Below, piece after piece: positions 8,232 through 54,912 of a stretch of DNA of 64,000 bases. The stretch is from the NCBI GenBank assembly GCA_905147135.1, contig LR990068.1, positions 3,430,001 through 3,494,000 of the forward strand, read 5' to 3'. The translations under genes were made by a program, and so were the position numbers. Each line of letters begins with the position of its first letter. Within the stretch, counting starts at the first letter, position 1. The notes beneath the pieces are model-generated. The model had not been told where the DNA came from. It saw only the letters and a program-made list of their open reading frames with translations, and did not search any database. Source of the DNA: Blastobasis lacticolella (lineage: Eukaryota; Arthropoda; Insecta; Lepidoptera; Blastobasidae).

Positions 8232-11109
8232 CATCATCATCATCATCAGCCAGAAGACGCCCACTGCTGGGCATAGGCCTCCCCCAGAGATCTCCACAAA
8301 GACCGGTCCTGTGCTTTCCGCATCCAGCTGGTACCTGCGATCCTTACCAGGTCGTCGGTCCACCTTGTAGGAGGCCTACCCACGCTGCGTCTACCGGTAC
8401 GTGGTCGCCACTCGAGAACTTTACTGCCCCATCGGCCATCTGTTCTTCGAGCTATGTGCCCTGCCCACTGCCACTTCAGTCTGGCAATCCTTAGAGTTAT
8501 GTCGGTGACCTTGGTTCGCTTGCGGATCTCCTCATTTCTGACTCGATCGCGCAAAGAAACTCCGAGCATAGCTCTTTCCATTGCCCTTTGGGTAACAGTG
8601 AGCTTTCTTATAAGGCCCATAGTGAGTGGCCACGTTTCAGCTCCGTAAGTCATCACTGGCAACACACATTGGTCAAAGACCTTCGTCTTGAGACACTGCG
8701 GTAATTGGGACGAAAATATGTGGCGTAGCTTCCCGAACGCTGCCCAACCGAGTTGGATTCGTCGATTGACCTCTTTCTCGAAATTGGACCTACCTAGCCG
8801 GACTATTTGTCCTAGGTATGTATAGTCGTCAACAACTTCAAGTGGAGTGCCTCCAACTGTCACTGGAGTAGGCACAACATGGACATTCGACATAATTTTC
8901 GTCTTGTCCATGTTCATTTTAAGACCTACTTGTTGAGAGGCACTACAGAGGTCATCGAGCATTTTGCCCAAGTCTTCCAGGGTTTCAGCCATGACTACGA
9001 TATCGTCAGCAAATCTGAGGTGCGTGAGGTACTCGCCGTTAATATTGATGCCAAGTCCGTCCCAGTCCAGAAGCCTAAAGATATCCTCCAGTGCAGCGGT
9101 AAACAACTTCGGAGATATGACATCACCTTGTCTAACACCTCGCTGCAGCTGAATAGGTTCTGTGGTCTTGTCCTGGAGACGAACTGACATAGTGGCGTTT
9201 TTGTACAAACACTTCAATGCTTCGATATATCGATAGTCAATTTGGCACCGCTGTAGAGACTGGAGCACCGCCCAAGTTTCGATCGAATCGAAGGCTTTCT
9301 CATAGTCCACAAACGCCAAGCATAATGGCCGGTTATACTCTTCGGTCTTTTGTACAACCTGCCGCAGCGTATGTATGTGGTCTATGGTACTAAAACCTTT
9401 TCGGAATCCGGCTTGTTCGGGAGGCTGGAAGTCATCAAACCTGCGTGCGAGACGATTCGTAATGACTCTCGAAAACAGCTTATAGACATGGGTCAGTAGC
9501 GATATTGGTCTGAAGTTCTTCAAGAGAGCCTTATCACCTTTCTTGAAGAACAATATCACTATGCTTCTGTGCCATGCTTCCGGCGTTTTGCCCTCGAGGA
9601 TGACGGAATCGAACAGCTTCTGAAGGGACTTAAGCACAGGTTTGCCACCAGCTTTCAGAAGCTCAGCAGTAATTCCATCATCACCCGGCGCCTTGTTGTT
9701 CTTAAGCTGTTTGAGAGCCATACTAATCTCGTACAGGCTGATGTCCGGGATATCTTCGGTGTAGTGTCGGGTCAACTTGGCTCTGGGGTCTTTTGCCATA
9801 CTGGTAACAGGTGCCCGTGTTGTCGTGTATAACTGTCCATAGAACCTCTCGACTTCCCTCAAAACCTCGGACTTGGTCGAAACAACTCTGCCGTCATCCG
9901 TTTTCAGTCTCGTCAACTGGCTCTGTCCAATCGACAGATCTCTCGCAAAGACTTTAGAGCCTTTGTTCCGCTCGATCGCCGCCTCAATATTGGTAGTATT
10001 GAAGCGGCGTATGTCGCGAGTCAGAGACTTGGAGATCTGTCGATTAAGTCGCCTAAATTGAGAGACATCATCAGGGGACTGCAGAGTCATTCCGCGTCTT
10101 TCTTCGATGAGTTTGAGGGTATCGTCAGAGATTTTGTTTGTTCTGTTTGTACGGCAGGCCTTATAAAACTTTGACCCAACCGTATAGACAGTTTCCACGA
10201 ACCTGTTATTATAGTCGTCCACGTCGACGCACTCTCTTAGGCACTCGAAGCGATTTTGTAATTCGAGTTGAAAGCTCTCGGGGTTTTGGATTTGGATGGG
10301 TACAGGCCGGAGCGTGGACCTCATCAATCTCGATCTTTCCAGCTGGGGATTAATATTCAATGTGCCTCTTACCAATCGGTGATCACTGCCAATTTTAACG
10401 CTATTGATCACCGAGACATCATTGAATATATGCCGTTTCGTAGATAGGATGAAGTCAATCTCATTTTTTGTGACACCATCGGGACTAACCCACGTCCATC
10501 TGCGATGATCCGGCTTCCTGAAAAATGAGTTCATCATAAAGAGTCCCTCCTTCTCCATAAAGCCGGCCAGCATCTGGCCACGGGCGTTCCGACTTCCAAT
10601 TCCAAATTGCCCCACTCTCAACTCGTCTCCGCCTCGTTTGCCCAGTTTCGCGTTGAAATCCCCCATGACAACGGTATAATGTGTCTTGGAGGTATGCATG
10701 GCTGTAGAAATATCCTCATACATAGCCTCCACTTCATCGTCGGAGTGAGTCGAAGTCGGTGCGTAGACCTGTATGACCTTCAACGAATACCGCTTGGTAA
10801 TTCTGAGTATAAGGTACGCTACCCTAGACGACACACTCTCGATTTTGACGATGTTGTTCACGAGGGATTTGTGGACGAGGAACCCGACACCACCTAGGGA
10901 CAGTTGGTCGCCCTCCCGGAAGTAAAGCAGATTTCCGGACTTAAGGATTACCGAGTCCTCCCCCTTTCTTCGGACTTCAGATAACCCTATAATATCCCAA
11001 TTTAATCTGCTTACCACTTCCTCCAGTTCCACGAGCTTTTCGTCGGTCCGCAGTGTCTGGACATTGTATGTTGCCAGGGCCAGTGGTCGTGCTTTGTGGT
11101 AGCCTGGTC
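8232..11109 (-). mobile_element. RTE-clade LINE, 5'-truncated
   Basis: The element lies between 14-bp TSDs. Its 3' end (left) is a GATGATGATGATGATGAT tail and its 5' end (right) abuts the TSD directly. One long ORF fills it. The 5' edge falls only about 13 codons before the endonuclease domain, so the 5' UTR and original start are missing. The TSD and the open ORF suggest a fairly recent insertion. Confidence 0.92.
8246..11109 (-). CDS. RTE endonuclease-reverse transcriptase (5'-partial)
   Basis: The open frame of about 954 codons encodes the two enzymes of target-primed reverse transcription. Residues 14-250 are an apurinic-type endonuclease: ATYNVQTLR at 14-22, GLSEVRR at 43-49, VYAPTS near 116, MGDFNAKLG at 150-158, EIDFIL at 218-223 and SDHR at 243-246. 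Reverse transcriptase covers roughly 510-770: NFRPISLL at 533-540, FVDYEKAFDS at 601-610, RQGDVISP near 661 and FADD at 701-704. The C-terminal part has GRPPTRWTDD and ends AYAQQWASSG. No ATG precedes the endonuclease; the frame simply opens from flanking DNA (the codon before CGA is TTG), and the first in-frame ATG is residue 131. The copy therefore probably cannot make full-length enzyme by itself, although I see no stop or frameshift. Close plus-strand remnants lie at 29.5 kb. Confidence 0.92.
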
Positions 11110-11123
11110 GCAAAAAACAAAAT
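11110..11123. repeat. Target-site duplication, right copy
   Basis: Exact repeat of GCAAAAAACAAAAT at 8,218-8,231. It marks the 5' boundary of the RTE insertion. Confidence 0.9.
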
Positions 11124-19849: not shown

Positions 19850-20215
19850 GGGAGTGAGTATATTTCTGCCGTCAAGCAACAATGCTTACGTTGTTGTGTT
19901 TTGGTTTGAAGGATAAGGTAGCCAGCGCAATTACAGACATGAAGTATTATACGCATTGGCGATACTCTTGGTGTTGCTAATGTCTATAGACAGTGGTGAC
20001 CACTTTCCAGCAGGTAGCCCGCTTGCCTTTTTGCTTACTGTAAGACATAAAAAAAAAATATATCTTAGTCACCTCACAGTGACGACGCACCCACGGTTCT
20101 GTATTTTTGTTGCCTGTAACCTAAATGCACGTATCGTAGATGTTATGGGCGACAGTTACCGCTTTCCATCAGGTGGACTGTGTGCTCGTTTGTCACTATG
20201 TAGCATTAAAAGTAT
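19850..20215 (+). repeat. Dispersed repeat E, interrupted
   Basis: Repeat E runs TCTGCCGTCAAGCAACAATG ... AGGATAAGGTAGCCAGCGCA ... then resumes with CACAGTGACGACGCACCCAC, TTTTTGTTGCCTGTAACCTA, GTTATGGGCGACAGTTACCG and CATCAGGTGGACTGTGTGCT. A plus-strand retroposon 3' end with an A-rich tail (about 19,951-20,058) splits it. This copy shows what lies between the two halves of the repeat E that was split by the viral segment at 48.7 kb. Confidence 0.75.
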
Positions 20216-38504: not shown

Positions 38505-41500
38505 TAGTTATTTATTTATTTAACTGTTTATTGTACACAATAATGATATACAGAGAAATATAATAGAACAACAGACACAACAGGCGCTGCTTATTTCTAA
38601 AAAGAAATTTCTTCCAGCAGGTCTACAGAAGAGAGATGTTAGACTAAAGTAACGCAGATACGACGTGCACAATAATTGAATATTTAAATACATAAATATA
38701 TTATATTATAATATATAGGTATATAAAGCTAATATAAACATATTATTAAAACAAGCGATATAAAATACATAAATATATAAGTTATGGACTAGACAGGGAA
38801 AGATAATATTCCTTGACTCTCTTTTTAAATATTGACAGTGACTGACTGTCACGCACATTATGTGGCAGTGAGTTCCATAGTCTCGCTGCATGGACAGTGA
38901 TGGAATAGGAGAAGAAATCGGAATGATGGATAGGGATAGATAACAATGATTTTACATTGGACCGACAAGGCTTGTCTTGGGCTCGGGAGAAGTGGAAGGA
39001 GTTGCGGAGATATGAGGGAGCAGAGGAATTGTTGAGGATATTGTAGAGCATAGAAAGGATATGAGCGTTCCTGCGATAACGAATCGGTAGCCACTTGAGC
39101 TGCGATCGATAAACAGAGATATGATCATACTTTCGTAGACCAAAAATAAACCTTAAGCAGACATTTTGCAAACGCTCAAGTTTGTTTAGAAGCTCTTCTG
39201 TGGCATCCAGATAGCAAGAGTCAGCGTAATCTAGGATAGGGAGAAGATGGGTTTGAACAAGAGAGATCTTAGTTTGTATAGGTAAAAGGCTTTGGAGGCA
39301 TTTGAGCGAGTGAAGTGAGAAATGTAATTTCTTACTGACCTCGTTGACATGTGAAACCCAAGAAAGATTGTAGTCCAGAATCACCCCAAGATTTCTCGCC
39401 GACTTACTGATCGGGATTGGGATATCATCATAAAAAAACTGAGGTATTATTATGTCAGAGCCTAGTCGCCTGTACATATGAGGGCTCCCGATGAGTAATG
39501 CTTGCGATTTCCCGGGGTTAACCAGTAAACCAAACGACTTGGCCCAAACAGAAATTCGTTCTAAATCGGCATTAATAAGAGCGAACGCTTCAGCAACATC
39601 AGAAATTCTGCAGTGCCGGTAAACTTGCAGATCGTCGGCATATAGGTGAAAGTTAGAAGAGATGACAGAGGTGACAGTGTTAATAAATACGGAGAATAGG
39701 AGAGGAGAAAGAACACCGCCCTGAGGAACGCCCGCAACGAGGTCCCGCCAGTCAGATGAGGCCTCATCAGAGCGGACCCGCTGAGAACGACCCCGCAGAT
39801 AGGAGTCAATCCACAGTAAGGCAGAAGGAGAAACATTAAGTGAGCGAAGAGTAGCGAGAAGAACGTCGAAGTCTACAGAGTTAAAATCGCTGCTAAAGTC
39901 AAGTAGTGTTAAAATTGTCAGTGACTTGTCCTCCATTGCGAGACGTATATCGTCAGTGACCTTTAGCAGCGCAGTGACAGTACTGTGACCTGGCCGGAAA
40001 CCAGATTGAAAAGATGATAGAAGACTATTCGATGTAAGATAGGTGGAGAGTTGGCTGTGGACGATGTGTTCGAGGACTTTGGAAAGGTAAGGAAGTAGAG
40101 AAATAGGTCGAAAATTGGATAAGGAGATGAGATTGGAAGTTTTAGGAAGAGGTATAACCTCAGCACTCTTCCAGGCCGACGGGAAACAACCCGTAATTAA
40201 GGAATAATTAAAGATGTGACTAAGTATGGGTAAGATTTGTGGGAGTAGGAGGGAGATCATGCGGCAGGAAACACCATCGTTGCCCACAGCTGTAGAAGTG
40301 ATGGAAGAAAGATGTTTTTTAACGTCCTCCTCTGCGACAGTGGTGAAGTGGAAAGAAGAACAAAGAGGGCGAGACTGGCCGTCAAGCTGCGCAATAGTGC
40401 GTGCCTTAACATCGGCTTCCAATATCACCGGCGGCGTGGAGAAGTGAGTATTGAGGGCGTTCAGGTCGAAAGAGGTATTGCGCGGCTCTACAGATTTGCC
40501 TATGCCAAGTGTTCTAAGAAACGACCAAACTTTCGAAGAGGATGACCCGATGATGGAACTATGGATATGACGCCTCCTGGCATCTCTACAGAGACGGCTA
40601 CAAAGATTTCTGTAGTATTTATACCTGTACAGTTTTTTATCTGAAGGGTATTTATTGTAACGACGTTTGGCGCTGTCACGTTTGGTCATCATATCCCTGA
40701 TATCCTGCGTGATCCAGGGAGCTGAAGCATGCTTTAGTTTAACTTTTTTCACAGGGGCATCAGTGTCATAAAGTTGAAATATGCGTGACTGAAACTCCTG
40801 AATCTTGTCGTCAACGTGGCCAGCATCGAAGACGGCACTAAAATCGATATTGTTTGCATCACGCCTCAAAGCCTCCAGGTCAATGTCTCTAAAATTACGC
40901 AGGAACTTAAATCTAGATTTAGGTTTTGGAGTGCGGGTTTTATAGGAAAGGTACACTAAATCGTGGTAGGAAAAGGGGGCGGGAAGTTGACCATGGACAG
41001 TAACTTTGTCTAAGGAGGAAGTGATCATGAGATCTAGAAGAGAGGGATTGCAATTAGGGGAATGATGCGTGGCCGCTAGCGGGAGAATATGCAGGTTGAC
41101 CGAGGACAAGAGAGACTGTAACTTCTGAGTGCGAACATCTTTTTTAAGTAAGCAGGTGTTAAAGTCGCCAAGGATGAGAACATGCTCATAACTAGGGCAC
41201 ATATTGCACAGTAGGTTCTCGAGGGAATTGAAGTAATCAATGCGCAGAGAAGGAGAATAAAATACAGCAAGCAGCATTTTCTTGTGGTGGAGAGAGATTT
41301 CAATAAAGAGATGTTCAGCAGTACCAGAATATGCGCTTGGAGAAACATTGACTACTGTGTGAGTGATATCCTCTCGGAGATAGATAGCGACGCCACCGCC
41401 TCCCTTGCCCGTTCGGTCGTTGCGAATAAGAGTAAAACCTGGGAGTGGGAATCGGGAAGAAGGGAGAGATGGTTTGAGAAAGGACTCTGATATAAGGACG

Positions 41501-41752
41501 GCATCGACATGACTGTTGCCAAAGGAAGCTACAAGATCGGCGTAATGGCTAGGAACGCTCTGTGCATTTATATGAACTACATTAAAATTGTTGGGAAATT
41601 TGGAAAAGGTAGCCTTCAACTGTTTATGCACCGAGAGAGACACGGAACCATCACCGTCGCTGTCCGAATCAGCGCTGTAAAATCGTCAGAAGATGAGGAG
41701 CAGGAGAAAAAATTATTAGCGATATCCTGTACATTGTCCATACAATGCTGAA
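38505..41752 (-). mobile_element. Jockey/CR1-type LINE, nearly intact
   Basis: A 3.25-kb minus-strand LINE. The 3' UTR ends in an AAATAAATAAATAAC tail near 38,505-38,520. The 5' edge is at 41,752, directly against the duplicated host exon copy. It carries one long ORF with endonuclease and reverse transcriptase. I could not find a TSD: the expected continuation of the host exon is not present beyond the 3' tail, so the locus may have been rearranged after insertion. Confidence 0.85.
38782..41741 (-). pseudogene. LINE endonuclease-reverse transcriptase with a likely 1-bp frameshift
   Basis: From 41,643 down, 953 codons are open. Endonuclease covers residues about 20-235 (VVHINAQSV at 22-30, LISESFLK at 50-57, ILGDFNTCL at 157-165, SYHDLV at 225-230). 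Reverse transcriptase covers about 480-760 (NFRPISLL at 510-517, SGFRPGHST at 547-555, LLDFSSDFNSVDF at 580-592, GVPQGGVLSP near 638, YADD at 668-671). The C-terminus is RLWNSLPHNVRDS and KKRVKEYYLSL. The open frame lacks an ATG near its start. An upstream ATG at 41,741 begins MDNVQDIANNFF in another frame, and the two frames meet at a T4 run (minus strand, 41,682-41,679). One missing T there would explain the break. In the catalytic A motif, the usual xAFN/KAFD is SDFN; the aspartate of LLD is kept. Confidence 0.85.
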
Positions 41753-47269: not shown

Positions 47270-47468
47270 TTATGCCACTCAGTGACAAGCGAGCAGACAG
47301 CCCACCTGATGGTAAGTGGTTACTGTTTTATATATACGATTCTTACATTTAGGTTGCAGATAACAAATATGCAAAACCGCAGGTGCGTTGCCACTGCGAG
47401 GAGTAAGATGAAATGCCTTAAGCTTGTAATCTTGCTGGCTACTTTACCACCGGAACACGGCAATGCAA
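47270..47468 (-). repeat. Repeat E, uninterrupted copy, minus
   Basis: The reverse complement reads ...AGCAAGATTACAAGC, GTGGCAACGCACCTGCGGTT, TTGCATATTTG, TATCTGCAACCTAAATG and CCATCAGGTGGGCTGTCTGC. It shows the undisturbed joint (CACCTGCGGTTTTGCATATT) that is broken by the viral insertion at 48,731/54,801. Confidence 0.75.
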
Positions 47469-47822
47469 GCATTTTTAAGAGAGGTAGGGCATAGCGGGGT
47501 ATCTCGTTCGAATTGGAGCCGCCCGACTGGGGCAGTACCTCCACCTTACAGAATATCGCAGCTAAATAATACTCTTTTAAATAGTATTGTGTTTCTGCCG
47601 GTGAGTAAGGTTTCCAGTGCTCCATGGGGTGGGGATTTGGGGAACCGTGGCTTTGGCAGTGGAGTGGTATTTGCTTTTTGCTGCCAGAGCAACGTGTTAT
47701 AGAGGTGGGCAACGCATTAGCGATACTCTTGGTGTTGCTAATGTCTATAGGCAGTGGTGACCACTTTCCATCAGGTGGCCCGCTTGCCTGTTTGCCTACC
47801 GAATGACATAAAAAAAAAAAAA
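47469..47822 (+). repeat. Dispersed retroposon 3' end with poly(A)
   Basis: It contains TAGGGCATAGCGGGGTATCT, GGAGCCGCCCGACTGGGGCA, TCCATGGGGTGGGGATTTGG and GTGGCCCGCTTGCCTGTTTG, and ends CATAAAAAAAAAAAAA. It is the plus-strand, most complete copy of the 2.5-kb family. Confidence 0.7.
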
Positions 47823-48589: not shown

Positions 48590-48731
48590 AGTACCAGCAC
48601 CTTATATATTTCTGCCGCCAAGCAACAATGCTTGCATTATTGTGTTCCGGTTTGAAGGATAAGGTAGCCAGCGCAATTACAGGCATGAGGCATTCCATCT
48701 TAGTCCTCATAGTGACAACGCACCTGCGGTA
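48590..48731 (+). repeat. Repeat E, left half, cut by the viral segment
   Basis: It contains CTGCCGCCAAGCAACAATGC, GGTTTGAAGGATAAGGTAGC and CATAGTGACAACGCACCTGCGGTA, and stops exactly where the bracovirus segment starts. The missing half begins at 54,801. Confidence 0.85.
48729..48731. repeat. Candidate 3-bp TSD (GTA), left
   Basis: GTA here and at 54,801-54,803 flank the insert. Collapsing them gives CACCTGCGGTACTGCATTTT, which agrees with CACCCACGGTTCTGTATTTT (20.1 kb) and CACCTGCGGTTTTGCATATT (47.4 kb, reverse complement). Confidence 0.65.
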
Positions 48732-48746
48732 ACAGGAAGGTTTGCC
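48732..48746 (+). repeat. Left viral end, imperfect TIR
   Basis: ACAGGAAGGTTTGCC matches the reverse complement of the right end (ACAGGAAAGTATTTG) at about 11-12 of the first 13 positions. Confidence 0.65.
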
Positions 48747-49640
48747 ATGCCGAAATTTAAAAATTGAAATCCAAAAAATCATGAACTTTAAAAAAATTTT
48801 TTCTGCTCCCAAAATTTGTTGTGAATTTGTAACTGGATCTGTTGCATAAAAAAGCACTGAAAATACAAATTGTTCTTATCTATCGTAGCTGGATTTTTTT
48901 TCATACGTAAGATTTATTTTTCTCATTTTTCAGTCCCAGTTGACAGTACAAAGATAAATGATTTTGACAAGCTCATTTGCATTCACGTTTCTTATGAATA
49001 TTTTTTCCTAATGAACTCTACTTCTATGAGGAAAATCTACTTGCAGTCACTGACCTTGTCGTAATATTGTAAATTTTCAAGGTTGAAACGCCGAACGTAA
49101 AATTATTTTTTTGACATTGGCATTTGACCAATTGTTGTTTGAAGTTAGTAATTAACTGTCAACAGCATTAAAAACCCTTTTCCAAATCTCTTTTCCAAGA
49201 ACTTTGAGTCTTCAAGTGTTTTCAATATTTATAAATTGACTTATCAAGAAATCGTGCCTTTGATATTCATGTTTTTTGTTTTTATGATACAGTAAACATC
49301 ATACAAGTATGATTGATATGATCGTAAAATATGGAATTTCATAACAGTAATCTGCGAAGAATTTAAATGACTGTTTTTGTACAAGATTTTAAGTAGCTTC
49401 CGTTCGAAGAAAACTCGTTAAAAAGAAGTTGTTTTGAAAATTTTTCGTTAACAAGCTCATGAATCAATGAAATGAAATCTGCTTGGAGTATTATGGTTCA
49501 AAAATATCAAAATAGTATTCTCTTTGACTTGCAATTGACCAATTGATACAAGATTTATGATTTCATCTGAACAGATTACTTTTGATGTTCGATAGTTATT
49601 AGATCTTGTTATTTGAATTGAACAAAATAAAAGCATACAC
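48747..49640. other. Viral non-coding flank, left
   Basis: About 0.9 kb of AT-rich sequence downstream of the first PTP gene. The longest ORFs are about 64 codons and show no motif. Confidence 0.5.
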
Positions 49641-49651
49641 AGTTAAATATA

Positions 49652-49657
49652 TTTATT
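49652..49657 (-). terminator. Poly(A) signal for PTP-like gene 1
   Basis: AATAAA on the minus strand, about 120 bp after the stop codon at 49,780. It is the first such hexamer downstream that I can see. Confidence 0.5.
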
Positions 49658-49779
49658 ATACAATTCTACATAGTAATATTACAAAAACTAGAAATTTCAC
49701 AACTTCTCTTATCCTTATCATCACAATTTTAACTTTACAGCAATGCCACAACCTTATCTCTATGTGTAGTACAGAAAAC

Positions 49780-50691
49780 TTATGGAACAGAGGCTCGTTT
49801 AAAGAGCAAACAATATTTTCTAACTCGTTGTCTGAAAGAAGCACTCTCAGAACTGTCTCTAAGTTTTTCATTCTTCAAATTCAAATCACTGATACTATCC
49901 AACAAAATCTGATTAAGGAAAATGTATTCCTCCAAACTGAAAAATTCAAAGGACACTTGGCTCTTAATTTTCAAGAGAACATTAGGCACTGCCACTGATT
50001 TCGATGTTCTTATCTGATCTAAACAGATGTCCAGCGCACAAATTGTCACCGCTCTTTCAAAGCATCCAACACTATGAATCACAATTGGACGATATGTACT
50101 TTCCTTGCCTTCCATTCTTGTTACGCAGCAACTGCCTTGTTTTTCATTAATCATCTTCAGGAAACTTTTTAATTGTCGAGAATTGAAAGTGGCATTTCTG
50201 TCCGGGAACTCATGGTACAGATAATGTAAAATTTTCTTCGATTTTCTTTCCATTAAATTATTTACAGTCAATTCCAATTGTGTGTAGTACTTATCAACAA
50301 TAATTTCCTTTCGAATTATAAACTCACCGACAGTATATTCGTTGGTATTGAGCCAATTGTGTCTCTTCGATTTCTTTTGATCAAATCTTACAATCACTTT
50401 GCAGCCACAATCCCATATCCAGCTCCAAAAAATATACGAATCCATTTCTGATTTAGGATTGTTGATCAACAAAAACTTATCCTTGACGTGGTATCCGTCG
50501 ATATAGTTGATAGTGAACATGTCGAAGTTAATACTTCCCACGATCGATAAGCGGGCGCACTTTCTACTTTTCTTCGGTGTACTTTCATCGTCAAAAGTAA
50601 GTCGGTTTATTAAATAGTGTTCACTTTTCATTATTTCTTGGAAGCTCTGGTCCCTTCGTTTTGCAAACTTTTGTACACTTTCTGTACTCAT
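49780..50691 (-). CDS. Bracovirus PTP-like protein 1 (pseudophosphatase)
   Basis: A complete 303-residue intronless ORF, ATG to stop, about the usual 290-310 length of bracovirus PTPs. PTP landmarks occur in order: the YIDGY loop at 63-67, FWSWIWDCGCKVIVRF at 88-103, a YHEFPD loop at 159-164 replacing the WPD loop, and the signature region PIVIHSVGCFERA at 202-214. The signature should be HCx5R: the catalytic cysteine is Ser207, while Arg213 is kept. WPD is FPD, with the aspartate (164) kept. It should therefore bind but not hydrolyse phosphotyrosine. Family knowledge: bracovirus PTPs act in the cytosol of caterpillar haemocytes and fat body, and many are catalytically dead and thought to trap substrates. 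No signal peptide is seen. It sits 0.87 kb from the second PTP, with its own promoter. Confidence 0.88.
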   Translation of the reverse strand: MSTESVQKFAKRRDQSFQEIMKSEHYLINRLTFDDESTPKKSRKCARLSIVGSINFDMFTINYIDGYHVKDKFLLINNPKSEMDSYIFWSWIWDCGCKVIVRFDQKKSKRHNWLNTNEYTVGEFIIRKEIIVDKYYTQLELTVNNLMERKSKKILHYLYHEFPDRNATFNSRQLKSFLKMINEKQGSCCVTRMEGKESTYRPIVIHSVGCFERAVTICALDICLDQIRTSKSVAVPNVLLKIKSQVSFEFFSLEEYIFLNQILLDSISDLNLKNEKLRDSSESASFRQRVRKYCLLFKRASVP

Positions 50692-50723
50692 TTCGATGTT
50701 TTCGCGATCACTGTCTGTATCAA

Positions 50724-50756
50724 ACTGAGAGTAAAAGACGCTGTGGTCTGTTTATA
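50724..50756 (-). promoter_or_regulatory. Promoter of PTP-like gene 1: TATA plus initiator
   Basis: On the minus strand TATAAA (50,756-50,751) lies 28 bp before an arthropod-type TCAGT initiator (50,728-50,724). The ATG follows 33 bp after the initiator. Spacing and motifs are textbook for an insect RNA polymerase II core promoter. Confidence 0.7.
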
Positions 50757-51557
50757 AACATTATTTTGATGGAATGTATTGTTGAGTCACTGAACGTCCT
50801 TCTGTAAGGCTGATTTCCCGAAATCAGAGATGGAAATTTAATGGCTGCTTTTCTAAAGAAATAATCACACTTATAATTTCTATTTATGATACAATTTATT
50901 ACAAAAGTTGTCAGGACGGTATTTGTTCACAGAAGTGTGCGGAAATAATTTATAATTTGAAGAAATTACAATTTTGGAAAATCGCTTTCTATGAAACCCA
51001 CAGCATTGAGAAACTTACGACTGCCTAATTTCAGAACACAGTAAGGAAAAAATATTTCAAAATCAATTTTCGAGCATTTTTCATGCCTATGAAATCATGT
51101 GAACATGATTAAATTAAAATTTTAATTTTGTCCCTTACTGTGTTTTAAAATTGGGCAGCTGCTCGATTCTGAACTTTAATTACTAATTAACGAACAGCTT
51201 TATCAATAAGGTCGTTTGTGACGTCAAACGGCACTTCGATAATCAGCGCTTAGGAGTTCAATGCCTTATACAGTAATTTCATTAACTAGACTAAGAATTC
51301 ACAATACGAATCAAGTATCAAATTTATTTCAAATATGTCAGAATGATATAAATTCTAAACTTTAGAGTAGAAAAAATTGACGTGCGCATTAAAAAATTTC
51401 AAAGATAGTATAATGTAAATTCCCAAAATCGATCAAATTGCAAATAACTATACCTAAGGCTAAATTCAAAATTTTCAAATTAACTGCAGTCTGCAATACC
51501 TATATGACATCATTTTAAGTACAAACAAATAGTTTTCGATTACAAATGATATACAAC
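50757..51557. other. Viral intergenic region with 138-bp inverted repeat
   Basis: AT-rich spacer between the PTP genes. It holds the inverted repeat at 51,021-51,158, listed separately. AATAAA on the minus strand at 51,328-51,323 may serve PTP-like gene 2, about 230 bp after its stop. Confidence 0.5.
51021..51158. repeat. Inverted repeat inside the viral segment
   Basis: CTGCCTAATTTCAGAACACA (51,021 on) pairs with the reverse complement of the arm ending TTAAAATTGGGCAG (51,158). The arms are about 33 bp, with a handful of mismatches and a spacer of about 70 bp. It could be a small MITE, a recombination or packaging feature, or an RNA hairpin. Confidence 0.65.
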
Positions 51558-52436
51558 TTAGATAACAGGTTGCGGAAATAAATTCTTCTTGATATAAACT
51601 CCAAGCAATTGGTAACACAGAGTATAGTTTTCTAAACGGTTCATGAACCCGTATTTTTGTTGCCTTACTTTCTTGAGAACACTTGCCACTGATAGAGTTT
51701 CCGTTTTCTCAAATTGCGCAACACATATATCAAATACGCAAAAAACCGCAGAGCCACTGAGCCCGTCCAGGCATTGCACAATAATGGGAGAAGTTTTCTT
51801 GCCAGCTTGTCTCTCCAACTGAAGGCACAAGTCTTTCACGTTACAATAAAAATCTATGAATGCATCTGGCTGATGGGAAAAATTATCCCACGGCCAAGCG
51901 GTGTATTGACAGTGGGATATTTTGTGCTCGTGGCCAGACTGGTCGGTCAGACTTAGCAGAGTCAACTTATAGTGCGGTTTTGTACTAATCTCCAACGTCT
52001 TTATCTTAAACTTATCGCGCACTGTCACACAACCCTCATCCGGGAAAAAATTTTGGCTACTCCTCTTGTCACTGAATCGATCCATCATCAAAATGATTTG
52101 GACTTTGAAACCCCACACCATTTCCCAAAATTTTCCGCAGAAATTCTCTTGCAAGCTTTTGATGCAAATATACTTCCGCTCAGTCTTATAACCATCGATG
52201 AAAGTAGCACCAAGTATTGTCTCGTTACTTTTGAGCTTTACGCGACGATCAAGATGGCGCTCAAGCTGTATGTCACCTTTGTTTTCACTCTTATCTTCCC
52301 TCTGGATTGAAGTTTTCAGCAACTTTTCTTTTCGTTTGGGCACTATAGAATAATATTCCGCTATTATACTTGTTAGTGAATCACGTTTGCTCATAAAACG
52401 CAGAAAATCATTTCCACTCATAGGCAAAGTTGCCAT
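51558..52436 (-). CDS. Bracovirus PTP-like protein 2 (pseudophosphatase)
   Basis: A complete 292-residue intronless ORF. PTP landmarks are FIDGY at 79-83, FWEMVWGFKVQIILMMD at 103-119, HCQYTAWPW at 175-183 in the WPD-loop position, and PIIVQCLDGLSGSAVFC at 217-233 in the signature position. Cys222 is kept, but the preceding His is Gln221, the phosphate-binding Arg is Gly228, and the WPD aspartate is Trp183. These are different lesions from those of the neighbouring PTP, so both are inactive by independent routes. Lys/Glu-rich residues 31-66 replace the usual start of the substrate loop. Family knowledge suggests a cytosolic immune-modulating role in parasitised caterpillars. It is flanked by the ankyrin gene upstream (0.6 kb) and PTP 1 downstream. 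Confidence 0.88.
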   Translation of the reverse strand: MATLPMSGNDFLRFMSKRDSLTSIIAEYYSIVPKRKEKLLKTSIQREDKSENKGDIQLERHLDRRVKLKSNETILGATFIDGYKTERKYICIKSLQENFCGKFWEMVWGFKVQIILMMDRFSDKRSSQNFFPDEGCVTVRDKFKIKTLEISTKPHYKLTLLSLTDQSGHEHKISHCQYTAWPWDNFSHQPDAFIDFYCNVKDLCLQLERQAGKKTSPIIVQCLDGLSGSAVFCVFDICVAQFEKTETLSVASVLKKVRQQKYGFMNRLENYTLCYQLLGVYIKKNLFPQPVI

Positions 52437-52502
52437 TTTTGTTGTATTTTTAATTTCGAACTAGCACTCACTGTTGTTCATATCGAGAGGATAACGCTTT
52501 TA

Positions 52503-52536
52503 AACTAATTCCCATTTAACAGTGTTAGTATTTATA
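52503..52536 (-). promoter_or_regulatory. Promoter of PTP-like gene 2: TATA plus initiator
   Basis: TATAAA at 52,536-52,531 (within GTATATAAATAC) lies 28 bp before TTAGTT (52,508-52,503), an initiator-like sequence. The ATG is at 52,436. The TATA-to-start geometry is the same as for the neighbouring PTP. Confidence 0.62.
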
Positions 52537-52777
52537 TACTCATTATCGTGCCCAATGCAAACTGCGCACATATCAGACCATTAACTTAATTTAATTCGTG
52601 CGTTCACCTACAGCTATGTCTCATGATGGACATTCATGTAGGTGGCGTTAACCTTTAATTACTTGTTTGTAAACTGTAAATTTTAAATGGATTAAAGCTT
52701 TGAACTTTTGTTCCTTTGTTACCTGTGCTTTTGTAGTTTTCGATAAATTGGCTTATTACATTGATATAAAATTAGTC

Positions 52778-52783
52778 TTTTAT
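52778..52783 (-). terminator. Possible poly(A) signal for the ankyrin gene
   Basis: AATAAA on the minus strand about 250 bp downstream of the stop codon at 53,036. Closer AATAAA-like variants are also possible in this AT-rich stretch. Confidence 0.35.
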
Positions 52784-53035
52784 TAAAATAATTTTAAAAC
52801 ATAAATAAAATTCTCTGATTTCTTCATAATCTTTAATAAAACTTTGTACAATAATTTTGATTTTCTTTTTAAAATATACAACTTCTTACAACTATAGACA
52901 TCATTGATCTTACATACGACATTGCTTATAATATATGAGTATCAAAAAACTTACACGCTAATTCAGCTAATATTAGCACAATCAAAAACACTTAATTTCT
53001 AGCTTAATCTTTAGATACCTTAAACATTAATTTAC

Positions 53036-53545
53036 CTAATTTTCACTATCACTACATTCACTATCACTTGAATAAGGCTGATGACAGTCCGCGCCGAATT
53101 CCATAAGGATGTCCATCATTTTGAAGTCACCTCTTTTCCAAGCAAACTGATAAGCAGTTAGATCTCCATAGTCACGCGCTTCCAAATTGACGGCAATCTG
53201 CTTACAAATCCAAGTTGCCAACTCGTAATCCTGATTAACGACAGCATGATGAAGCGCAGTACTTCCAGAAATTCTGTCTGGTGCGTTCAGGTCTGCCCCT
53301 ATCTCTATCAGGATTTCCAGCAACAGCACAGCCTTTTGCCCTCTATGACTTCGCGCTACAATATGGACACACTGATATCCTTGAAAATTGTACTCACACA
53401 GCAGATATTTGTTGTTAAGGGCCAACCAACATCCAGCTCGCAAGAGTAAGGTCACACACCCCTGGTCACAAATGTCATGGAGAAAATTGTCTCCCCAGCT
53501 GTCCACTGCACCGAATATTTCCCTGATGATTAAAAGAGACTCCAT
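53036..53545 (-). CDS. Bracovirus ankyrin-repeat protein (I-kappa-B-like, vankyrin)
   Basis: A complete 169-residue ORF, the usual size of bracovirus ankyrin proteins. Four ankyrin-type units are visible: about 17-50 (GDNFLHDICDQGCVTLLLRAG), 56-90 (GYQCVHIVARS..LLLEILIEIGADLNAPD), 93-126 (GSTALHHAVVNQDYELATWI) and 127-157 (GDLTAYQFAWKRGDFKMMDI..GADCHQP). The tail SSDSECSDSEN is acidic and serine-rich. It has no N-terminal phosphodegron-like region and no membrane or signal segment. Family knowledge: such proteins resemble the I-kappa-B/Cactus ankyrin domain without its degradation signals. They can hold Rel/NF-kappa-B factors in the cytosol, blunting the caterpillar's Toll/IMD response. The alternative, a host ankyrin gene, is unlikely because of its position between viral PTPs and the insertion edge. 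Confidence 0.85.
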   Translation of the reverse strand: MESLLIIREIFGAVDSWGDNFLHDICDQGCVTLLLRAGCWLALNNKYLLCEYNFQGYQCVHIVARSHRGQKAVLLLEILIEIGADLNAPDRISGSTALHHAVVNQDYELATWICKQIAVNLEARDYGDLTAYQFAWKRGDFKMMDILMEFGADCHQPYSSDSECSDSEN

Positions 53546-54785
53546 TATTTCAAATGAGAAGAAAAGTTGATCTGTCCCTAAGCAATGCCAGTGTAGGACT
53601 GAAGCTAAGTTATTTCTAAATAAGTACTATTGGCATCAAGCCAATTTATATTAGCGATTTACAATCCATGGATTTCCTGAAAGATATCGTTCTATATTTA
53701 TTTTCAATAAACCAATATAACAATGGGTTCAATGTTTTCCTTTTATGCTACCACAGTAAATGTTATTATATCATATGTTGCTCTGCAAAGCAAAACAAAT
53801 GGATTTTAACATAAATAATAGCTACCGTACCAAAATTTGATTGTACCGATATTATGCTAATTATATAAGACAATTTCTAATTAGATTTTCCATTTCAAAA
53901 TATCAAAATGAAAGTGAACTATAGTTATTGAATTTGAAAAGTGGTAATGAATTCAATTTTTCTTTAATTATTACCAAAAGTTAACAATCAAACAACAATT
54001 TCATGAAGATTATAGGTGTAGAAAACTTTGAAAAATTTCCACCTCTATCAATATTGGCCTGAAAATTAAACGGAAAATTGAAAATTTCCAAGAATGCGCG
54101 CACCAATTTATCAACCAATAAATTGTTGCTAACGTTCCAGTTTTCAGAGAATGAAATATCGATAATTTTTATTTAGATAGAATAGTTCTACTGGTAAAAA
54201 CCCGGAGTTTCCCAATAGCTCCCTATCTATCGTACAAGTGGGCATGTTGCCAACAAATAAATTCCCTGGATTTCCCAAAGGAGCGATAAATAGAATCTCA
54301 TTAGCAACAATACATGCTACATAACCAAACGATTGTTTCGTTTATTTTTAGTAGGCATTAAGTTAACGCGGTTTTCCTGTTTTTTAAATCCGTATCAATT
54401 GGTATTTTCTGATGACTATACCATTAATAACTCTCTAATTATTTTTAATTTTGTTTATAACTTACATTTATGAAGCATCGAATCTTTATCTGTTACTATG
54501 CAGAGAGATTTGTTCAAAATTTTAATTCTATCTTCAAAAAGCTATATACTATGATTTTAATTCGTTCACTAGTCGCTATTTATACATCCGTAGTAAACAA
54601 TATAATCTCGAATAAAATTCACTTTTATTAGAATTACGTAGTAAATTCCAAAGTTGTATTGAGAAGCCATTGACCGCTTCTACGTAACAACTAAACATAA
54701 ACTTCTAGTAGCCTTGACATTGAATTTGTTGTGATGTCATTGACTCGGCTGCTAATTTTCTGCTAAGTCCACTAACTTTCTAGAT
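53546..54785. other. Viral non-coding flank, right
   Basis: About 1.2 kb, very AT-rich. It should contain the ankyrin promoter; the minus strand has TATAAA at about 53,650 and TTCAGTCC at about 53,600, but 48 bp apart, so the core promoter is uncertain. No ORF with a motif. Confidence 0.5.
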
Positions 54786-54800
54786 CAAATACTTTCCTGT
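54786..54800 (-). repeat. Right viral end, imperfect TIR
   Basis: CAAATACTTTCCTGT. Its reverse complement resembles the left end at 48,732 (ACAGGAA.GT.T). It abuts the resumed host repeat. Confidence 0.65.
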
Positions 54801-54912
54801 GTACTGCATTTTTGTTGCCTGCAACCTAAATATGTGAATCGTAGATGTGATAGGCGACAGTTATGGCTTACCTTTAAGTAGGTTGTCTGCTATTTTTACT
54901 GCTTAAAAACCT
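54801..54912 (+). repeat. Repeat E, right half, resuming after the viral segment
   Basis: GTACTGCATTTTTGTTGCCT, GCAACCTAAATATGTGAATC and GTGATAGGCGACAGTTATGG continue repeat E precisely from the point where 48,731 stops (compare 20,090-20,200). The first GTA is the candidate duplicated target. Confidence 0.85.

Follow-up and report, generated by a model that had tools for sequence, protein, structure and literature searches.

To judge by its title, the study of Heisserer et al. 2023 (doi 10.1093/molbev/msad050) reportedly deals with the massive integration of polydnaviruses into lepidopteran germlines. The case described here is similar in that it concerns polydnavirus DNA in the germline of a lepidopteran. 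We analyzed a stretch of 64,000 nucleotides from the moth Blastobasis lacticolella (contig LR990068.1, here called C29, positions 3,430,001–3,494,000; hereafter the window), in which one copy of a dispersed host repeat, repeat E, is interrupted by an AT-rich insert of 6,069 bp with genes of bracovirus type. Germline integration of bracoviruses is already known, and this window is a new and rich case of it. In the sections of PMC4574769 that were available, bracovirus insertions are described in four lepidopterans (Danaus, Bombyx, Spodoptera), none of them a complete circle. Like those insertions, some of which keep the viral gene order, the segment studied here places bracovirus genes in lepidopteran chromosomes; unlike them, many of its copies span from one half of the host integration motif (HIM) to the other.

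The ends of the segment are best compared with those of circles of Cotesia typhae and C. vestalis that integrate in somatic cells. According to the parts of the reports at hand, these circles are opened at the HIM, leaving the ends J1 and J2 (PMC8549517, PMC8460044); inverted 8-nt (TAAATTTC/GAAATTTA) and 5-nt (CTGGT/ACCAG) repeats form the borders of the integrated circles (PMC8460044), and variants of the HIM repeats are described for Microplitis demolitor bracovirus (MdBV) in the accessible part of PMC7843510. The window segment would similarly have been opened at a HIM-like motif and has J1/J2-type ends with inverted 8-nt and 5-nt repeats. Different from the somatic integrations, as far as those sections go, it is in the germline, it has both old and young copies and it is flanked by a 3-bp target-site duplication.

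The split copy of repeat E ends at 48731 and continues at 54801. A preliminary description of this DNA, made from the letters alone, had placed the break and the resumption at these positions, and flank alignments proved both breakpoints exact to the base. Once joined, the flanks align through the joint with two copies: the minus-strand one at 47292–47476 (74% in 199 columns) and, as two separate pieces, the one at 19859–20186. The statement that other copies show an unbroken joint is exact for the former; the latter is continuous at the joint but interrupted upstream of it (19951–20058). Compared to both unsplit copies, the split copy has three bases more at the joint, and GTA is present on each side of the insert (GTA 48729–48731 = GTA 54801–54803); repeat E thus resumes without loss, as had been said, and with a gain of three bases. 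The GC content is 0.331 in the insert and 0.415 in the remaining window, and self-comparison (E 1e-8) detected no repeat shared between the two. Host DNA flanks the segment on both sides in a lepidopteran genome, as expected for a germline insertion.

As in the preliminary description, both junctions are preserved, and they resemble HIM ends. The two ends of the insert are inverted relative to each other, reading ACAGG-N15-GAAATTTA and ACAGG-N15-GAAAGTTA; compared to the published motif, one 8-nt repeat is exact and the other has one mismatch. The termini look like those left by HIM-mediated integration, J1/J2 ends with inverted 8-nt and 5-nt border repeats. To obtain a null for the paired motif, 5,000,000 end pairs were simulated with the composition of the insert, and the motif was looked for in the outermost 40 nt. 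One exact GAAATTTA together with one of at most one mismatch occurred in 1,432 pairs; the motifs stood at equal offset in 37 of the 5,000,000, and none of the pairs also shared the first five bases. AGCT, the excision motif of the direct repeat junction (DRJ) or wasp integration motif (WIM), occurs 22 times in the insert, which is about the expectation from composition; three of the occurrences lie 155–257 nt from an end. As a pointer to the excision site AGCT is uninformative here.

The preliminary description listed PTP-PTP-ankyrin genes in a 6,069-bp insert, and this was confirmed. Three intact open reading frames (ORFs), all on the minus strand, encode two Y_phosphatase proteins of 303 and 292 aa and an ankyrin protein of 169 aa. 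In the loop of the 303-aa protein tyrosine phosphatase (PTP), IHSVGCFERA, Ser is in place of the catalytic Cys; its family assignment is based on sequence comparison with Pfam and PDB, and its AlphaFold models (mean pLDDT 36.5 and 55.0) were too poor for structure search. The loop of the 292-aa PTP-zeta-like protein (PTPz), QCLDGLSGSA, is without the catalytic Arg, and the PTP-zeta relatives have loops altered likewise. In the part of PMC3573978 that was available, PTPs are presented as a large and old bracovirus gene family, only a subset of which encodes catalytically functional enzymes. The coordinates of all the features are collected in Table 1.

Table 1. Features of the window, with positions counted from its first nucleotide
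Feature	Position	Strand	Basis or remark
Integrated bracovirus segment (very probable reading), HIM half to HIM half	48732..54800	.	6,069 bp; split repeat, GC shift, genes, dispersed copies with identical ends
HIM-like half at the left end: ACAGG + 15 nt + GAAATTTA	48732..48759	+	End sequence compared with published HIM repeats
HIM-like half at the right end: ACAGG + 15 nt + GAAAGTTA	54773..54800	-	Pattern also closes other copies
Left copy of 3-bp target-site duplication GTA	48729..48731	.	3-base surplus compared with both other repeat E copies
Right copy of 3-bp target-site duplication GTA	54801..54803	.	3-base surplus compared with both other repeat E copies
Left part of split host repeat E	48605..48731	+	Window self-comparison, flank alignment
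Right part of split host repeat E	54801..54891	+	Window self-comparison, flank alignment
Uninterrupted repeat E copy, used as empty site	47292..47476	-	Alignment to joined flanks
Second repeat E copy, continuous at joint	19859..20186	+	Upstream of joint broken by other repeat, 19951-20058
PTP-like protein, 303 aa, predicted pseudophosphatase	49780..50691	-	Pfam PF00102 E 3.1e-21; alignment to solved PTPs
PTP-zeta-like protein (PTPz), 292 aa	51558..52436	-	Pfam match, database relatives, loop inspection
Viral ankyrin, 169 aa	53036..53545	-	Pfam, database relatives
Strong hairpin between both PTP genes	50996..51183	-	z -5.36, minimum free energy -54.7 kcal/mol, 0/200 shuffles as stable

Database searches, which the preliminary description had proposed for the origin of the proteins, showed that the best matches of PTPz and of the ankyrin are bracovirus or wasp proteins, besides copies in other insects. 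Among 15 hits, PTPz is related to proteins of C. congregata (63%), Glyptapanteles flavicoxis (64–65%) and C. sesamiae bracoviruses (60%); two of the same hits are lepidopteran, one from Cydia pomonella (78%) and one from Euphydryas editha (62%). Of the four hits of the ankyrin, a viral ankyrin of G. flavicoxis is the best (67% identical). PTPz belongs to one group with Cotesia PTP-zeta (C. congregata ptp.z_17.3) and Glyptapanteles PTPs, with 60–65% identity and an altered active-site loop. Different from these, the window and Cydia proteins form a branch of their own: in a tree of 14 rows they are paired (100/100) beside the Cotesia and Glyptapanteles clade (98/97). In the same tree the Euphydryas copy groups with Cotesia (100/99), which indicates a separate transfer. 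The database record of the Cydia protein, a bracovirus-type PTP-zeta, names it an ordinary phosphatase.

A relative of the ankyrin was also observed in the stick insect Bacillus rossius redtenbacheri, where a 380-Mb contig encodes a 165-aa 'cactus-like' protein that is 62% identical to the viral ankyrin of the window and 83% to another relative. Judged by its sequence, the stick insect protein is a bracovirus-type ankyrin outside Lepidoptera and wasps. A literature search on it returned nothing on point among the matches listed.

The assembly, of 577 Mb, is made up of 45 contigs (contig numbers as high as C30 were met, and the 22 for which a length was shown are 10.9–35.4 Mb long); all copy numbers given below are lower bounds. 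Comparison of PTPz with its own genome yielded 838 candidates and 134 scored matches; some of the weaker matches may be phosphatases native to the moth. Six full-length PTPz at 98–100% are located on C29, C3 (two), C8, C13 and C6. The segment as a whole has seven other copies, on C3 (two), C8 (two), C13, C28 and C6, whose coding and non-coding parts are 95–99.8% identical in the aligned pieces. Its left 200 bp were found at 18 places including the window, and at 16 of them the match starts at the identical base. Near the copies of this family 14 end stretches were inspected; nine reached the terminal bases, one was shortened (C28, left), one was internal (C6) and three gave no match. No match was found between the flanks of different copies when seven copies were compared, and the two matches that did occur are each between the two sides of one copy.

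HIM-like ends of the same kind also bound a second segment of 4,863 bp, which encodes an intact PTP with canonical loop and a different ankyrin. Its left end was scored at 40 places of 105 candidates, and is identical over 200 bp at 21. Eight copies that were fetched differ by 0–20 mismatches in 4,863 bp over the 28 pairs; two copies on different chromosomes are identical across all 4,863 bp. A third unit, larger than 20 kb, is present on C2, C16, C17 and C20 with 97.8–100% identity in aligned pieces >300 bp (C17 compared to the others), and has, among the places listed, a HIM-like end at C17 (8641863) and C16 (8783619). Genome-wide, ACAGG-N15-GAAAGTTA occurs 140 times, compared to 23 times for the reversed control. 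The view of the window as a bracovirus segment in a lepidopteran germline is thus supported by genes, ends and host, whereas the view of it as a single clean insertion is ruled out by the dispersed copies in the same genome, of which it is one of many.

On C8 (20105323–20127245), a stretch of 22 kb contains PTPs of two or three different lineages. The younger copy there was not matched by a right end at the expected place; perhaps one segment was inserted into another here.

A 3-bp target-site duplication was observed in 29 of the 29 elements for which both ends were read. Four belong to the window family (GTA, GTA, GAA and TAA, 4/4) and ten to a first set of the 4.86-kb family (10/10). Ten more elements of the latter family were tried as a second set; five had the right end at the expected distance, all of them duplicated, and five did not have it there. 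Pairing of HIM-like ends head to head recovered three of those five among ten elements of 3.6–17.9 kb, again all duplicated, and left two of the tried elements unread; these length variants were read at their ends, on which their assignment to the 4.86-kb family is also based. As a control, left and right junctions of 19 elements were mispaired, and the three bases were equal in 60 of 342 combinations. The duplication at one time appeared to be always NNA, which was an artefact of a search string starting with A; a neutral string gave TAG, TCC and TCG.

'Target site duplication' does not occur in the available text of PMC8549517, nor do 'target site' and 'duplicat' in that of PMC8460044. A literature search pairing polydnavirus terms with target site duplication found the term, among the matches listed, in Helitron papers only. 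The consistent 3-bp duplication and the multicopy families are possibly new features of this case.

The PTPz copies differ in age and in the constraint that they show. Between the window PTPz and older lineages, dN/dS is 0.15–0.34 at dS 0.12–0.55 in nine of twelve comparisons. For the six youngest copies the pooled dN/dS is 0.70 (15 pairs), and the changes confined to a single copy number 12 replacement to 3 silent, compared to a neutral ratio of 4:1 for this gene; four sites shared with an older copy, L007 (two silent, two replacement), are left out of this count. Because dN/dS is low between lineages and the young copies are near neutral, PTPz was under purifying selection while the lineages diverged and is little constrained after insertion. 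This is the pattern predicted by repeated arrivals from an evolving wasp virus. We infer that the divergence of the PTPz lineages arose outside the resident moth copies, whether these derive from separate arrivals or from paralogous circles. In eight copies of the 4.86-kb family, chosen for intact frames, we counted two silent and no replacement changes in the PTP and four replacement and no silent changes in the ankyrin, too few to judge.

The three ORFs of the window would gain about 1.18 stops per 1% of neutral divergence (sum of three values). The closest copy differs from the window segment at 7 of 3,876 sites. If moths mutate at about 3e-9 per site per generation, roughly a few hundred thousand generations at most would have passed since the window copy separated from its nearest relative, and far fewer for the youngest copies. 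As two 4.86-kb copies are identical, they are younger than the split between the window copy and its nearest relative.

Very probably, bracovirus circles brought by a microgastrine braconid wasp were inserted through the HIM into the germline DNA of this moth, many times over. A circle would open between J1 and J2 and lose the short stretch in between; losses of ~40–70 bp are recorded for integrated HIM circles in Table 1 of PMC8460044 and in PMC8549517, as far as these were accessible. The two HIM halves would then act like terminal inverted repeats and be linked to target DNA whose strands were cut 3 bp apart, whence the GTA duplication. Segments of several types (6.07 kb, 4.86 kb and >20 kb), each in multiple dispersed copies, would be what repeated integrations left behind in caterpillars that outlived parasitism, while the virus of the wasps went on evolving.

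A 3-bp duplication is expected of staggered strand transfer, as performed by DDE transposases and retroviral integrases, and is atypical of tyrosine recombinases; its presence at HIM-like ends therefore favors staggered strand transfer over classical tyrosine recombination. The chemistry may thus be DDE-like, by a retroviral integrase or a transposase. If J1 and J2 are regarded as terminal inverted repeats, the integrated form would correspond to the transposon and the lost stretch to the donor remnant. In the sections at hand, nudiviral-origin integrases (tyrosine recombinases) and host retroviral integrases are both proposed as the enzyme (PMC8549517, PMC8460044), and two retroviral-type integrases of the host together with three virus-encoded ones are implicated in PMC8460044.

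Several observations weigh against repeated circle integration. The border pentamer ACAGG is different from the published ACCAG of the C. congregata and C. vestalis bracoviruses (CcBV/CvBV) and ACTAG of MdBV, and an unrelated repeat that matches the HIM-end pattern, ACAGGCAATTAACGAAAGAAGAAAGTTA, makes up six of the places listed (one on C3, two on C4, two on C10 and one on C17). No bracovirus circle was found among viral contigs with PTPz, an alignment of its relatives, one of the ankyrins, and PTP1 as queries, at this sensitivity. Instead of separate arrivals, the older PTPz lineages may represent paralogous circles carried by a single wasp. The remaining three of the twelve dN/dS comparisons involve young copies: L008 has 1.24 (2 silent, 10 replacement changes), and L065 and L066 on C3 have 0.25 and 0.31 on 8–9 differences. 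Copies of the 4.86-kb segment on C17 and C21 share their sole substitution relative to the reference copy in the stretch read, and both have one TGA in the PTP frame, although their flanks and duplications (TCC, TAA) differ; this shared nonsense mutation is explained no less well by mobility inside the moth genome. A broken copy may have moved, or the virus may have carried the broken allele.

That last observation leads to the most serious competitor, which we consider possible though clearly less probable: the segment, having integrated once or a few times, turned into a non-autonomous transposon, moved by an enzyme acting in trans (a host integrase or transposase, or one borne by the virion). 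Terminal inverted repeats, target-site duplications and dispersed copies, the hallmarks of a DNA transposon, are all present. The near-identical copies at many places, with 0–20 mismatches among the eight 4.86-kb copies, fit it, as do the duplications in all the elements read, the premature TGA common to C17 and C21 in different surroundings, and the length variants that retain the same ends. However, no transposase-sized ORF was found besides the PTPs and ankyrins in the 6.07-kb and 4.86-kb segments, whose ORFs were read; the low dN/dS between PTPz lineages, with the youngest near neutral, requires a selected source, as in the wasp; the nonsense allele could have segregated in the virus; and about 20 young copies in some ten thousands of generations would need just a modest rate of germline integration. 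More tentatively still, the bracovirus segments may form a living transposon population in the moth, with HIM halves as terminal inverted repeats, a trans-acting enzyme, a 3-bp stagger and tens of recent copies, circle integration then being a transposition that leaves the J1–J2 stretch behind. The reverse order, in which PTP and ankyrin genes were first picked up by an ordinary insect transposon that later supplied bracoviruses with the HIM and the genes, is improbable. The inverted repeats and the 3-bp duplication are transposon-like, and the tree leaves the direction of transfer unproven, window and Cydia lying beside Cotesia and Glyptapanteles and not inside them; on the other hand, the Euphydryas copy nests with Cotesia. 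We know of no autonomous element with these ends, of which end patterns were counted here. The size and age of the PTP family in bracoviruses argue against that order as well (PMC3573978).

Two long intact ORFs of non-LTR (long terminal repeat) retrotransposons were observed on the minus strand, at 8246–11113 (955 aa) and 38,785–41,643 (953 aa). The latter, of Jockey type, has 184 relatives, the best at 61% among the matches listed; an organism is named in 21 of the 120 listed, 20 being Lepidoptera and one bearing an archaeal metagenome-assembled genome label. A wasp origin of the window as a whole, be it a provirus or a circle that had inserted again into the genome of a braconid, is hardly credible: for Cotesia, the part of PMC8549517 seen describes duplications inside wasp genomes that were mediated by the HIM, but the Jockey kin are lepidopteran, and 577 Mb in 45 contigs does not resemble the 233 Mb in 11 chromosomal pseudomolecules given for a braconid in the accessible part of PMC11803444. 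A wasp genome was rejected on these grounds. Equally remote is an assembly chimera or contamination at one place, which is very unlikely given the exact joints, the target-site duplication and the recurrence of identical ends at many other positions in the assembly. The arguments of the preliminary description against chimera and wasp contamination are thus strengthened by the dispersal of the same ends and by the lepidopteran Jockey kin. Multiplication of a single integration by segmental duplication has very little to recommend it. Two pairs of left ends share 20-bp flanks, on C9 (L054/L055; 16013699 and 16028659, in inverted orientation) and C23 (L047/L050; 1601237 and 2246166), and these probably are segmental duplicates, so it explains some copies; as a general explanation it is refuted by the unrelated flanks of the seven copies compared and by the separate duplication of each element with both ends read. 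Copies of different ages residing in long contigs indicate germline DNA, and we return to repeated HIM-mediated integration of a bracovirus as the preferred reading.

The hairpin between the two PTP genes is possibly pre-miRNA-like, a candidate viral microRNA precursor, or else a palindrome, as judged from its predicted folding. Rfam (gathering scores) and tRNA scans of the window gave no match, and a PHROGs search gave weak ankyrin matches and nothing else.

The 3-bp duplication at HIM-like ends bears on which enzyme integrates bracovirus circles. The many copies of different age document the frequency at which caterpillars outlive attack by these wasps, and the genome allows asking whether immune-suppression genes of wasps spread or are kept in the moth.

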